From NCBI RefSeq assembly GCF_002211285.1, contig NZ_LOKX01000013.1, forward strand, positions 1-64,000: a DNA stretch of 64,000 bases. Direction: 5' to 3'. A program made the position numbers and the translations under genes. Shown in pieces: positions 20,127 to 59,523 of the stretch. Positions within the stretch are counted from its first letter, which is position 1. Every line of letters begins with the position of its first letter. This DNA is from Rhizobium sp. R635. GTDB taxonomy: Bacteria; Pseudomonadota; Alphaproteobacteria; Rhizobiales; Rhizobiaceae. The notes under the pieces were generated by a model, which was not told the origin of the DNA, made no database searches, and worked only from the letters and a program-made list of their open reading frames with translations.

Positions 20127-20252
20127 TGCGGCCCCCTCATCCGGCTGCTGCCGCCTTCTCCCCGTTGGGGCGAAGGGACTCGCGGCGACGTCTCGATTCC
20201 CCCTTCGCCCCAGCGGGGAGAAGGTGCCCGTAGGGCGGATGAGGGGGCCGCA
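20127..20252. repeat. RIME1-like intergenic mosaic element, copy 1
   Basis: The ends form a perfect 17-bp inverted repeat (20127-20143 with 20236-20252, TGCGGCCCCCTCATCCG). Inside, two further arms around CTTCTCCCCG and CGGGGAGAAGG pair over about 24 bp with one mismatch. This is the double-palindrome design of Rhizobium-specific intergenic mosaic elements. It lies between the convergent ade and M20 genes and could work as a bidirectional transcript end. Confidence 0.85.
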
Positions 20253-23534: not shown

Positions 23535-23695
23535 GCGCCCCCTCATCCGCCCTGCCGGGCACCTTCTCCCCGAGGGGAGAAGAAGACTCGCGGCACGCTC
23601 TTCCCGTCTTTCGACAGCGACGACATTGCGGCGGATGCAGCCTACACATGGGACGTCCCCTCTCCCCAGCGGGGAGAGGGTAGGGTGAGGGGGCT
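23535..23695. repeat. RIME1-like element, copy 2, between tctC and tctB
   Basis: The ends GCCCCCTCAT (about 23537) and TGAGGGGGC (about 23686) are inverted. Internal arms CTTCTCCCCGAGGGGAGAAG and CCTCTCCCCAGCGGGGAGAGG are each self-complementary. It shares its core sequence with copy 1 at 20127-20252. Its position inside an operon, directly after the binding-protein gene, suggests an effect on message stability or partial termination. Confidence 0.75.
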
Positions 23696-30260: not shown

Positions 30261-30364
30261 AAGCATGTCGCGCAAAACTGTGCAGCGGTTTTGCGAGAAC
30301 GACATGCGTAAAACAAAGACCTAAAGCGCGAGAAGCGAATCTGAAAGATCGCGATGCGCTTTAG
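30261..30364 (+). repeat. Double-hairpin intergenic repeat, copy A (between cbtB and cbtA)
   Basis: 104 bp. The first hairpin is built from GCATGTCG/CGACATGC with inner CGCAAAA/TTTTGCG arms. The second is built from TAAAGCGCG and CGATGCGCTTTA around GCGAATCTGAAAGATCGC. Three further copies are at 45737, 49069 and 53199. The last bases, read on the minus strand, provide the TAA stop codon of cbtB. Confidence 0.9.
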
Positions 30365-45382: not shown

Positions 45383-45790
45383 ATGAACGCTCAGTTCATC
45401 ACCACCGCATCCGGAGAACGGATGGCAGTTCGCCGAGAACGATTATCGCCGGCTTCTCGACAACTTGGAAGACGCTCTCGATGGGATCGCCGTAGCTTCC
45501 TTCCGGGAGAAACTTGCGTCCGGCCAGGAAGAGCTTGTCCCGGGCGAATTCGCAAACCGGCTGATCGACGGAGAAAACCCGAGCAAGGTGTGGCGCGAAT
45601 ATCGTGGGATGACATCCCGCGACTTGGCCGCAAAGGCTGATATCAGCCCCGGCTTTCTTTCGCAGATTGAGAACGGCGCACGCGATGACAGCTTCGAAAC
45701 GATCAGAAGATTGCCGCTGCCCTGAATGTGGCCTTAGAGCATGTCGCGCAAAAGTGTGCAGCGGTTTTGCGGCAAAGACATGCGCAAACC
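45383..45790 (+). pseudogene. Decayed Xre-family antitoxin with two frameshifts
   Basis: Three frames piece together one protein. It begins MNAQFITTASGERMAV from ATG 45383. After a frameshift near 45431 it runs AENDYRRLLDNLEDALDGIA on to GEFANRLIDGENPSKVWREYRGMTSRDLAAKADISPGFLSQIENG (45432-45705, an Xre helix-turn-helix). A second frameshift near 45706 restores KIAAALNVALEHVA. The downstream repeat copy B begins within this last part and supplies the end of the frame. The helix-turn-helix region alone is long enough to be mistaken for an intact 86-residue gene. Confidence 0.75.
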
Positions 45791-45840
45791 AAAGACTTAA
45801 AGCGTGGCAAGCGAATCTGAAAGATCGCGACACGCTTTAG
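45737..45840 (+). repeat. Double-hairpin intergenic repeat, copy B
   Basis: 104 bp of the same family as 30261-30364, 49069-49173 and 53199-53303, in the same orientation. Its left end (GAGCATGTCGCGCAAAAG) is fused to the C-terminal coding region of the decayed antitoxin. Confidence 0.9.
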
Positions 45841-49042: not shown

Positions 49043-49068
49043 CAGTATTTCCTTGGGAGGGAAACTTG

Positions 49069-49173
49069 GAGCATGTCGCGCAAAAGTGTGCAGCGTTTTT
49101 GCGATAACGACATGCGTAAAAACAAAGACCTAAAGCGCGAGGAGCGAATCTGAAAGATCGCGACGCGCTTTAG
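49069..49173 (+). repeat. Double-hairpin intergenic repeat, copy C (at the serA stop)
   Basis: 105 bp of the family seen at 30261, 45737 and 53199, in the same orientation. On the minus strand its first bases complete the TAA stop of serA, exactly as copy A does for cbtB. Confidence 0.9.
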
Positions 49174-53051: not shown

Positions 53052-53198
53052 GGATTTCACTCCAAAATCCGGTTGCGTCGGCAGGCTCAGTCGCTGCCAA
53101 TCTGATACGCTGTGCATGGATAATGAATTGAAAACGTTAAAAGCTGCTTAACCACGATTATTTACTGTATTTGGCAGATATTCCTGAAGGAAAAACTA

Positions 53199-53303
53199 GA
53201 GCATGTCGCGCAAAAGTGTGCGGCGGTATTGCGATAACGACATGCTTAAAAACAAAGACTTAAAGCGCAAGGAGCGAATCTGAAAGATCGCGACGCGCTT
53301 TAG
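53199..53303 (+). repeat. Double-hairpin intergenic repeat, copy D
   Basis: 105 bp, same orientation and structure as the copies at 30261, 45737 and 49069. It lies in a long intergenic region and does not touch a stop codon here. Confidence 0.9.
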
Positions 53304-56946: not shown

Positions 56947-57043
56947 CGAACTCCCCAGCACTGGAACAGCCGCCTCATGGCGACCGTCTTATTTGGTTCT
57001 AACATAGGGTTGCGCCGTGCGATTGCCAAGGCGACACCCCAGG

Positions 57044-58522
57044 TCAGATGGTTTTTCCGTCAATACTTCTTAAAGGCAGCCCCGCATAGGGCGCCGTTGC
57101 GAAAACCGCCGAAAGCCTGTCGGCAAAGATGAAATCAAATCGTGTCAAAAAGCGGTCGAAGGGTGCGAAATACGGCATCAGATCGATCGAGCGGGAGGAT
57201 TCCGGAGCCAAATAGGCTCCTTCTGAGGATAAGGCGGGTGCCGAGGCGATTGCGCGGTTCCATGCCGACTTGGGAAGGTGCTGCATACTCTCCCTCATTC
57301 CCTTCCTCGGGCTTTGCCCGAGGGATGTCACAGGAATCCAGCCACCGCGCGTCTGGGCGGTGAACGACTCAACGAAGCGCAAAGTGTCTTTTGCGCCCAA
57401 GGACTTGGGCGCGCTGCATTCCTGTGACAAGCACAGGAATGAGGGAGCGCGTGGAGTAGCGGCCTCGGCCTCTATCGACGTGGTCAACCCATTCCACACA
57501 TAAAACCTCCCATCCCAAACCCCAGCCTTTCCCGGCCTCAACACCAGAGGCAATATCCCCCTGCTCTCCCGCGCCAGATAAAGCCCGTCACGCCGCAGAT
57601 CGAACACCACCCTGCCGGCGGTCATCCGTCCCGGCTTACCGCCGGCGGCAAATGCCAGAATCCGTTCCATCTGTCCCCTGCCCGGCACAAATGGCTGGCC
57701 GCCGAACACAGCCGTCAGACGGCCGAGCGCATAATCGAGCACTGCACGATCCTCACGCAAACCACCAGGCGCTACCTGCCCAAGCAGGCCGCCATGAAGC
57801 ATGAAGTGACGATCCAGCCATTTGGCGGCTCGGGACGACAGGGCCAGCCGCTCCTCCCAGGCCGCGCGAATATCCGTCTCCGCTGCCGCATCGGCAGGTG
57901 GCTGCCGGCGAACCCGAACGCGCTCGTACTTCTCATCCTCGTTGCTTGGGTCGTCGATCCAACCCACACCCCGCTCCCGCAGGAAAGCGCGGATATCCGC
58001 TCGGGTGGAAAAAAGAAGCGGTCGTAAAATCCAGAATCGCCGGTCGAAGAGCACGGCGTCGGCGATACCGGATGAAACCTGCTCCGTTCGCATCCCGCGC
58101 ATCTCAAGTGTTTCACGCTGGTCGTCGAAAGTATGGCCGGTGACGATGAGATCGGCGCCGAGCGCTTCCGCCGCCTCGGCCAGAAGTCCGTAGCGGGCTT
58201 CGCGGGCAGCTGCCATGATTCCGGTCTTCGGCTTTTCGCCCTGCCAGATCCTGACGGTATGGGGAATGCCGAGCGACGCGCAAAGGGCTGCGATCTCTCG
58301 CGCCTCCTCTGCGGAGCCGGCGCGCAACGCATGGTCTACGGTCGCGGCGCATAGGGAAATTTCGGGATGGGGTGCGGCCTTCACGGCTTCATCGAGAAGG
58401 AGAAGCAGGCCGGTGGAATCGCTGCCGCCCGATACCGCGACGAGAATGCGCGCGGGGCGTCGAAGCGAGAAGAGAAACTGGCGGATCGCCAGCCGAGGCA
58501 ATGACGTGCCCTCCGCAGACAT
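57044..58522 (-). CDS. tilS: tRNA(Ile)-lysidine synthase
   Basis: 492 residues. It lysidinylates the CAU anticodon of the minor tRNA-Ile. The PP-loop is ILVAVSGGSDSTGLLLLLDEA and DLIVTGHTFDDQRETLEMRGMR is typical. A stretch of about 53 residues (roughly 359-411, APSFLCLSQECSAPKSLGAK onward) is foreign: it is the in-frame translation of a palindromic repeat at 57290-57447. Apart from this the enzyme is of normal length, about 440 residues. ATG 58522 is chosen, 11 bases after the cpoB stop; the longer frame to 58630 reads inside that gene. tilS is essential in most bacteria, so the insertion is presumably tolerated. Confidence 0.9.
   Translation of the reverse strand: MSAEGTSLPRLAIRQFLFSLRRPARILVAVSGGSDSTGLLLLLDEAVKAAPHPEISLCAATVDHALRAGSAEEAREIAALCASLGIPHTVRIWQGEKPKTGIMAAAREARYGLLAEAAEALGADLIVTGHTFDDQRETLEMRGMRTEQVSSGIADAVLFDRRFWILRPLLFSTRADIRAFLRERGVGWIDDPSNEDEKYERVRVRRQPPADAAAETDIRAAWEERLALSSRAAKWLDRHFMLHGGLLGQVAPGGLREDRAVLDYALGRLTAVFGGQPFVPGRGQMERILAFAAGGKPGRMTAGRVVFDLRRDGLYLARESRGILPLVLRPGKAGVWDGRFYVWNGLTTSIEAEAATPRAPSFLCLSQECSAPKSLGAKDTLRFVESFTAQTRGGWIPVTSLGQSPRKGMRESMQHLPKSAWNRAIASAPALSSEGAYLAPESSRSIDLMPYFAPFDRFLTRFDFIFADRLSAVFATAPYAGLPLRSIDGKTI
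57290..57447. repeat. Palindromic repeat inserted inside tilS
   Basis: 158 bp with terminal inverted repeats CTCCCTCATTCC (57290-57301) and GGAATGAGGGAG (57436-57447). Inside are three perfect hairpins: CCTCGGGC/GCCCGAGG (57305-57323), GCGCCCAAG/CTTGGGCGC (57393-57412), and TTCCTGTG/CACAGGAA towards the right end. The tilS frame runs through it without a stop. Confidence 0.85.
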
Positions 58523-58533
58523 GGCGGAAAGCG

Positions 58534-59523
58534 TTAGCAGGAGAGGCGCTTCTGTTCGCTCGCGACCTTGCTTATGACGGCGCGTGAGGCCTTCGGATAA
58601 CGCTTCGAGACTTCGCGCAGCGTCGCGCACGCCGTCTCGGTATTGTCGAGGGCGGCAAGCGACATGCCGAGCTTCAGGAGCATTTCGGGAGCCTTTTCCG
58701 ATGTCCCGTATTTCTGATGCGCATTGAGGAAAGTCTTGGCCGCCTCATTGTACTTGCCCTGCGAATAGAGCGCCTCGCCGAGCCAGAAATTGGCATCCGC
58801 CGCCCGCGCGCTGCTGGGGTAGCGGGTAATGTACTGCTCGAACTCCTGTTCGGCCGTGCCGTAATCGCCTGACAATACGTGGCCGTAGGCCGCCTTGTAG
58901 TGATCGGCCTCGCTGCCGAGCGAGGCGGTCTGCTGCGGCGTTCCACTGCTGGCATCGGGAAGCGGCGCGGAGCCGATGGTGGCGTTTTCATCCATGGTTT
59001 CGCCAACCTGGTTGCCGTTCTGATCGAACTCGATCGAACCCAGCTGCTTCGGCGGCTGCCCGAGCCCGGTATTGGCGGGCACATCGGTAGAGGGAGCCGT
59101 TTCGGCTCCCTGCGGTGCTTGGATCACCTTGGCGACATCGTCCCCGCCGGAAGCTGCCGGAGCGGTTTCGGTCTCGCTCTTCTTGACGGGTGTCTTGGCG
59201 GCACCGCCGCCGGAACCGGTCTTTTCGAGCTGCTGGAAGCGGAATTCATTGTCTTCCTGCTGTTTGCGGATCGTCTCCTGCATCTGCAGAAGCTGGAAGC
59301 TCATCTCCTCGATCCGGCCGTTCAACTGCCGCAACTGCTCTTCGAGCTGCTGCACGCGGACCTCCGCGTCGCCGCTCTGCACCTTGACAACAGGCGGCGC
59401 CGACTGGCTTTCCGCGGGTCGGCCGCCGAGATGCAGCCCAAAGAACGAGGCCGAATAGGCCACCCGTTCGCTCCCGGTCACAGCCGCGAGGCACAGCATG
59501 CCTGCCACGACAAGTTTCTTCAT
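58534..59523 (-). CDS. cpoB: Tol-Pal system protein CpoB (YbgF)
   Basis: 329 residues. A signal peptide (MKKLVVAGMLCLAAVTGSERVAYSA) is followed by a coiled coil (about 55-110, VRVQQLEEQLRQLNGRIEEMSFQLLQMQETI) that mediates trimerisation. A Pro/Ala-rich linker leads to C-terminal TPR repeats (about 205-329: YKAAYGHVLSGDYGTAEQEFEQYI and later repeats). In E. coli CpoB coordinates peptidoglycan synthesis with outer membrane constriction together with Tol-Pal. It is downstream of pal behind a terminator-like hairpin, and tilS starts 11 bases after its stop. Confidence 0.9.
   Translation of the reverse strand: MKKLVVAGMLCLAAVTGSERVAYSASFFGLHLGGRPAESQSAPPVVKVQSGDAEVRVQQLEEQLRQLNGRIEEMSFQLLQMQETIRKQQEDNEFRFQQLEKTGSGGGAAKTPVKKSETETAPAASGGDDVAKVIQAPQGAETAPSTDVPANTGLGQPPKQLGSIEFDQNGNQVGETMDENATIGSAPLPDASSGTPQQTASLGSEADHYKAAYGHVLSGDYGTAEQEFEQYITRYPSSARAADANFWLGEALYSQGKYNEAAKTFLNAHQKYGTSEKAPEMLLKLGMSLAALDNTETACATLREVSKRYPKASRAVISKVASEQKRLSC

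Follow-up and report, generated by a model that had tools for sequence, protein, structure and literature searches.

How does a gene that should be essential come to carry a palindromic repeat within its reading frame, and what becomes of the repeat once it is there? The question is raised by tilS, the tRNA(Ile)-lysidine synthase gene of Rhizobium sp. R635, which lies in the window that we analysed, the first 64,000 nucleotides of contig NZ_LOKX01000013.1 read on the forward strand. A first-pass annotation, made from the letters alone, had described in this gene a multi-hairpin repeat with inverted ends that is translated in frame, and had likened it to the protein-coding palindromic elements of Rickettsia.

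The repeat and its host gene

The repeat is a 158-bp multi-hairpin sequence with inverted ends that lies inside tilS (Table 1). Its outer ends form a perfect 11-bp inverted repeat, CTCCCTCATTC at 57290-57300 and GAATGAGGGAG at 57437-57447. The coding-strand RNA of positions 57285-57452 had a folding energy of -99.1 kcal/mol as compared with a mean of -59.2 for shuffled sequences (z -8.66), and none of 200 shuffles matched it. The ends, the folding and the 77 matching pieces found in the genome of the strain (see below) all bear out the palindromic repeat that had been proposed at this position. At one end of the window copy a variant terminal module, 18 bp longer than the usual end of such repeats, stands in place of the usual inverted repeat. 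Because the window copy is thus a mosaic with an alternative hairpin (57305-57323) at one end, most other copies align with it only from query position 37 onward. A search of Rfam with positions 57000-57700 (E-values up to 1) gave no family.

Table 1 Positions in the window of tilS, its catalytic domain and the parts of the repeat
Feature	Position	Strand	Remarks
tilS, tRNA(Ile)-lysidine synthase reading frame	57044..58627	-	stop at 57044; Pfam and TIGR02432
PP-loop ATPase (catalytic) domain, residues 61-241	57905..58447	-	Pfam ATP_bind_3, E 2.7e-42
Palindromic mosaic repeat, type A reading (frame +2 of element), ~53 residues	57290..57447	-	
Usual terminal inverted repeat with its own hairpin	57413..57447	-	hairpin ATTCCTGTGACAAGCACAGGAAT (+ strand) at 57418-57440
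Inner hairpin	57393..57412	-	GCGCCCAAGGACTTGGGCGC (+ strand letters)
Inner G+C hairpin	57343..57362	-	arms CACCGC / GCGGTG (+ strand)
Variant terminal module	57290..57327	-	hairpin CCTCGGGCTTTGCCCGAGG at 57305-57323

The encoded protein matched the TIGR02432 equivalog at 148.8 bits, the cut-off being 93.6. By protein matches, the named relatives put the strain within Rhizobium, close to R. leguminosarum and R. etli. Translation may start near 58522, at the first ATG that follows the end (58534) of the upstream ORF. Where the minus-strand ORF (57044-58630) crosses the repeat there is no stop, and the insert takes up approximately residues 394-446 of the 527-residue reading. Given this uninterrupted frame and the score of the equivalog match, the first-pass proposal that the repeat adds about 53 residues in frame to an otherwise normal tilS held. 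Its description of these residues as foreign stands insofar as they are added, although a new function need not follow, as the peptide appears to evolve near-neutrally (see below). The second intact tilS that would mark this copy as dispensable was not found in the genome of the strain, in which there was a single full-length match; the remaining matches to the tilS query were copies of the repeat plus one match of 27% over residues 54-216.

Relatives in the PDB gave matches confined to the N-terminal domain, and AlphaFold models were of low confidence, with a mean pLDDT of 41.8 for the TilS of the window and 52.5 for a short-linker TilS (L051). In the model of the window protein the insert, at a pLDDT of about 22-39, follows a predicted strand (385-388) and precedes a predicted helix (453-461); as most of this model is below a pLDDT of 50, disorder of the insert loop cannot be read from it.

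Other repeats also occur in the window. A different inverted repeat pair of 46 nt, of the GGCGGATGAGGGG type, is found at 20203-20248 and 23537-23582 around about 3.3 kb. There are also two direct repeat pairs, one of 116 nt and 91% identity (49058-49173 and 53188-53303) and one of 103 nt and 88% identity (30262-30364 and 45738-45840), each of which is perhaps another dispersed repeat.

A dispersed family and one linker of TilS

Used as query, the 158-bp repeat gave 77 matching pieces in the 5.8-Mb genome of the strain, pieces of the inverted ends being counted, which is far above chance. It had matches in 103 of 148 Rhizobium genomes, and pieces of the repeat family were present in 48 of 247 genomes of the Rhizobiaceae (27 of the 109 genera sampled). 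Two more copies lie on the same contig beyond the window (G000:C13:66732-66855 and 103886-104009). The usual copy, as seen among 30 loci that were viewed, is about 143 bp in length and has ends that are inverted repeats of about 35 bp. From one side to the other it consists of a ~35-bp end that forms a hairpin, the CGCCCAAG/CTTGGGCG hairpin, a spacer that varies, the G+C hairpin and finally an inverted copy of the first end; some copies, that of the window included, have an alternative hairpin module at one end. The RAYT transposase family PF01797 had no match in the genome of the strain, a control being positive in 5 of 14 genomes, and mobilisation of the element by a RAYT was rejected on this ground. 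In the PLSDB collection 175 plasmid records matched; for 55 of the 60 listed the best place lay in no annotated feature and the other five records were unannotated, these figures being drawn from a gene table that is incomplete.

Other coding copies, which the first-pass annotation proposed to look for, were sought at 59 non-tilS loci with their flanks (L002-L030; L057, L061, L062, L065; L200-L225). A codon-usage model for telling coding from intergenic flanks discriminated poorly and Pfam was used in its place. Only 2 of the 18 element-spanning ORFs of the longest type had any domain. In L220 an enoyl-CoA hydratase domain begins at residue 142 and the element lies ahead of the likely start methionine. 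In L023 a di-haem oxidoreductase domain begins at residue 175, upstream of which lies the element at residues 61-99. (On the minus strand of L023:1-1797 the element stands just before the likely signal peptide of the oxidoreductase, possibly in a 5' leader.) Hence, no second coding copy could be demonstrated at the 59 loci by a test that misses genes without domains and that left aside some spanning ORFs, among them four of L225, a locus cut by a contig end, and the weaker matches. As no coding copy was shown outside tilS, the family is taken to be mainly intergenic, unlike the Rickettsia elements.

All 148 Rhizobium genomes have tilS, and the part of the gene that receives the insert, the linker that joins the VWDGR(F/Y) strand to the LPKxAxKRA helix, was read in 130 of them (L066-L195). 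Each of the 130 linkers was free of stops and a multiple of three in length, the lengths being 153-444 nt; R. vallis exemplifies the natural short form. By blastn with the consensus of the element an orientable copy was found in 58 linkers, whereas 4 others had no more than end pieces and 68 gave no match; in-frame remnants are visible by translation in some of the blastn-negative linkers, such as L103, L111 and L126. The comparison of relatives suggested by the first-pass annotation therefore located recognisable copies in the same linker of 58 of 130 genomes and in three frames, and what had been described as an insert in one strain is present there but is recurrent rather than a single event. 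Copies are also found in distant clades (type A in L129 and L132, type B in L133 and in L142, L143 and L147; types defined below). The nearest insert-free alleles (L152 and L141) differ by more than the element itself. At the tilS loci of 24 repeat-carrying genomes from 13 other genera of the family blastn with the consensus gave no match, both linker anchors being present in only 10 of these 24 loci.

Two further observations concern single alleles. The linkers of L142, L143, L147 and L153 are 225-279 bp longer than those of insert-free relatives, as compared with a 122-bp element, and have additional in-frame sequence flanking the element on both sides. In L195 (G002:C1:3349427-3350592) the N-terminal part of tilS is in two overlapping frames (query residues 2-223 and 215-391), which is a frameshift or sequencing error outside the linker.

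The 58 tilS copies are read in three frames of the element without exception: type A in frame +2 (24 copies), type B in frame -1 (32 copies) and type C in frame +1 (2 copies). These are the frames most often open in non-tilS copies of the same length class, of which there were 12, with +2 open in 7, -1 in 9 and +1 in 5, as compared with 2 for +0, none for -0 and 1 for -2. In a composite consensus the conserved parts contain stops in +0, -0 and -2, and for +1 and +2 the stops are confined to the variable spacer. The idea that frame 0 is closed in every copy was true of this composite but failed for real copies and was dropped. Frame +0 is open in 11 of 31 non-tilS copies of all length classes and thus openness alone does not bar it from tilS. 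The lengths of these 31 copies divide 9/10/12 among the three classes modulo 3, whereas 54 of 57 tilS copies fall into one class (L120, the remaining tilS copy, could not be fitted). The three copies off the main class (L076, L112 and L121) were taken to have misplaced ends because their whole linkers are multiples of three. Lengths were determined by alignment to the consensus, which replaced a pattern-based finding of ends that gave false ends.

Inversion and probable exchange of the inserts

Two alleles, L143 (type B) and L153 (type C), have the inverted ends and the near flanks in common and differ in that the interior is reversed; after reversal 52 of 54 interior bases are identical. When the L153 element was compared with four genomes the closest sequences were the tilS copies of G072, G126 and G133 (98, 96 and 96% identity), each of which is opposite in orientation relative to its own gene, and the best non-tilS copy reached 91%. 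Thus, one C copy and a B copy are related by inversion, in place, of the sequence that the inverted ends enclose, a change seen once. L094, which has 85.5% identity to the reversed interior of L092, is only suggestive of a second case. Both interiors can be open in the end phase that B and C share, so that a flip between these types leaves the gene intact. A flipped A would run into the TGA that the consensus has in its G+C hairpin, and there is no such allele among the 58. As the ends of A and B are read in different phases, these types are not interconvertible by a simple flip, and simple flipping was rejected as the source of the A/B difference since the flanks differ also.

The distribution of the types was examined in the leguminosarum-etli clade, in which 49 rows from 63 genomes were typed (22 A, 26 B and 1 C). 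On the tilS tree of this clade A versus B/C required 17 changes and 100 shuffles of the labels gave a mean of 16.4 (12-20); thus, insert type does not follow the tilS tree. When absence of an insert was included as a state (130 rows) there was some clustering, with 33 changes in all versus a shuffled mean of 51.3, and the labels of A (18 changes versus 22.4) and B (25 versus 28.9) were slightly more clustered than in the shuffles. In the tree of the neighbouring ftsH gene A and B are likewise intermingled, with 6 changes among 20 typed rows. Type was associated with flanking sequence in 2 of 17 flank segments, both adjoining the insert (0 of 300 permutations each), in which p-distances for same versus different type were 0.305 versus 0.446 and 0.244 versus 0.298. 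The segment at -912, far upstream, showed the opposite association (297 of 300 permutations). The linkage of type to flank reaches about 60 bp, and beyond the element the flanks of A and B are visibly unlike each other. Pairwise divergence of the inserts plateaus near 0.12, and third positions reach 0.33. Given the linkage and the incongruence with the tree, the best fit is homologous exchange, over short tracts, of a small number of ancient cassettes, and conversion with other copies of the repeat could add to the low divergence of the inserts.

The A/B pattern might instead be the outcome of many independent insertions, in each orientation, at a hot spot. The differing end phases of A and B, which no simple flip connects, and the copies in distant clades speak for such insertions, but the flanks of fresh insertions would track species, and in the leguminosarum-etli clade the flanking linker differs from one type to the other, as shared descent of a cassette predicts. 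We think this origin of the pattern unlikely.

Constraint on the insert and its place among known elements

The dN/dS ratio of the insert came to 1.00 in type A, estimated from 18 of 22 rows, and to 0.65 in type B, from 22 of 26, whereas the remainder of tilS gave 0.20 in the A rows and 0.19 in the B rows. In three of the A rows (L074, L112 and L116) the split had been placed too far downstream. Differences in the type A insert were even over the codon positions (0.35, 0.33 and 0.32), as compared with 0.59 in third positions for the rest of the gene. By these values the encoded peptide looks near-neutral, although the ratio of 0.65 for type B leaves room for weak constraint. That the repeat could be inverted, exchanged between species and lost in part while the gene stayed open suggests that in the tilS linker the reading frame matters and the residues that it encodes hardly do. 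In the tilS copies stem positions changed less than other positions (0.072 versus 0.174 for A and 0.062 versus 0.166 for B), and the copies outside tilS showed a like effect (0.081 versus 0.189). Hence, some force on the structure of the DNA or RNA may be acting as well, or the copies may convert one another.

The reading that we favour, to which we give a probability of about 0.8, is that a mosaic palindrome of Rhizobium has repeatedly entered one flexible linker of TilS, where it is kept in frame as a tolerated loop and is subsequently flipped, exchanged, altered in its modules and deleted. The palindrome, with its terminal inverted repeats and hairpins, would have entered the linker more than once in the history of the genus, and only copies having a length and frame that leave tilS open would have persisted. 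Judging from the conservation of frame, the loop of about 45-60 residues is probably translated, and it would be tolerated with its sequence nearly unconstrained. The cassette could then change in four ways, each of which keeps the frame: its interior may flip between the inverted ends, species may exchange it through homologous recombination of short tracts, one terminal hairpin module may replace another with a change of length in multiples of three, and parts of it may be deleted so that remnants are left.

If the inserted peptide were instead a functional part of TilS that, for example, tunes tRNA binding, its sequence would be kept by selection. Wide retention in a single gene and the B-type ratio below 1 would accord with this, but the same site is filled by three unrelated peptides in three frames, the A-type ratio is 1.00 and most of the insert has been lost in frame in many close relatives (L103, L111 and L126), which makes a functional peptide quite improbable. 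A bolder proposal is that the linker is an actively diversified cassette, in which inversion would toggle between the open readings B and C within a lineage and short-tract recombination would spread cassettes from species to species, so forming a swappable surface loop. It is a long shot, but if true it would give a putatively essential enzyme a loop that is possibly selected for diversity (for example, by phage or toxins that recognise TilS). Translational bypassing of hairpins within genes is known, for example from the mobile byp elements in the mitochondria of yeast, and the predicted fold of the mRNA hairpin in tilS is very stable. However, bypassing of the hairpin or its excision from the RNA would need neither a length in multiples of three nor freedom from stops, both of which are kept in 130 of 130 linkers and not in other copies of the element, and we regard skipping of the insert as very doubtful. 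Finally, that tilS is decaying or dispensable, with the insert as pseudogene debris, or that the insert is an assembly error is scarcely credible, since the two-frame N-terminal part in G002 is offset by ratios of 0.20 and 0.19 outside the insert, by the single tilS of the window genome and by the presence of the insert in separately assembled genomes of many species, including the complete genome of R. johnstonii 3841, a laboratory strain in which the insert is of type A.

The tolerated-loop reading invites comparison with several known classes of element. Rickettsia palindromic elements (RPEs) are described as palindromes of about 100-150 bp that lie in frame in alphaproteobacterial housekeeping genes (PMC10969869, PMC3733652). 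They occur in a wide range of unrelated genes, which hold about half of the 44 copies in R. conorii (PMC10969869). The Rhizobium element in tilS is likewise a palindromic repeat of about that size read in frame in an ORF, but it has been shown in tilS only, and it displays three frames in two orientations, inversion in place and probable exchange of cassettes. The likeness to Rickettsia elements drawn by the first-pass annotation survives as an analogy only, the Rhizobium family being mainly intergenic with no other coding copy shown; the element resembles RPEs in effect but is probably not one of them. RIMEs are palindromic mosaic repeats described as scattered intergenically in the Rhizobiaceae (PMC2573895, PMC2245857), and the present family resembles them in its many copies in Rhizobiaceae, its mosaic palindromes and its mainly intergenic placement, the difference being that its tilS copies lie in a coding gene. 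By description it appears RIME-like in kind.

REPs tagged by GTAG or CGTC have been reported to lie within genes in several species; among these genes are some for tRNA modification and, in two Xanthomonas species, recB, with the REP at about the same site. Neutral placement in flexible linkers is discussed by the authors (PMC3733652). REPs differ in being 20-40 bp or dimers and in often being tied to RAYTs, the family absent from the genome of the strain. MITEs, which are able to form in-frame fusions (PMC10969869), share with the Rhizobium element the small size, the lack of coding capacity, the many copies and the terminal inverted repeats (usual ends of about 35 bp, one being replaced in the window copy), but no parent transposase or target-site duplication was identified for the latter. 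A 2024 review calls protein change made by MITEs outside Rickettsia conceivable (PMC10969869). Our search of open-licence PMC papers found no prior report of the tilS insert or of coding RIMEs. What seems new is the recurrent use of one core-gene linker across a genus, with three readings, in-place inversion and cassette exchange.

For Rickettsia and for REPs it has been debated whether palindromes read in frame within genes are debris that is tolerated or new parts of the protein. The TilS linker is a natural experiment on this question with many alleles, in which one element gives three peptides, is lost and regained, and has its frame kept and its sequence not. These alleles support the view of a tolerated loop, and in one case such an element has been inverted in place within a coding gene. 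They also mark TilS residues ~380-450 as a site tolerant of insertions.
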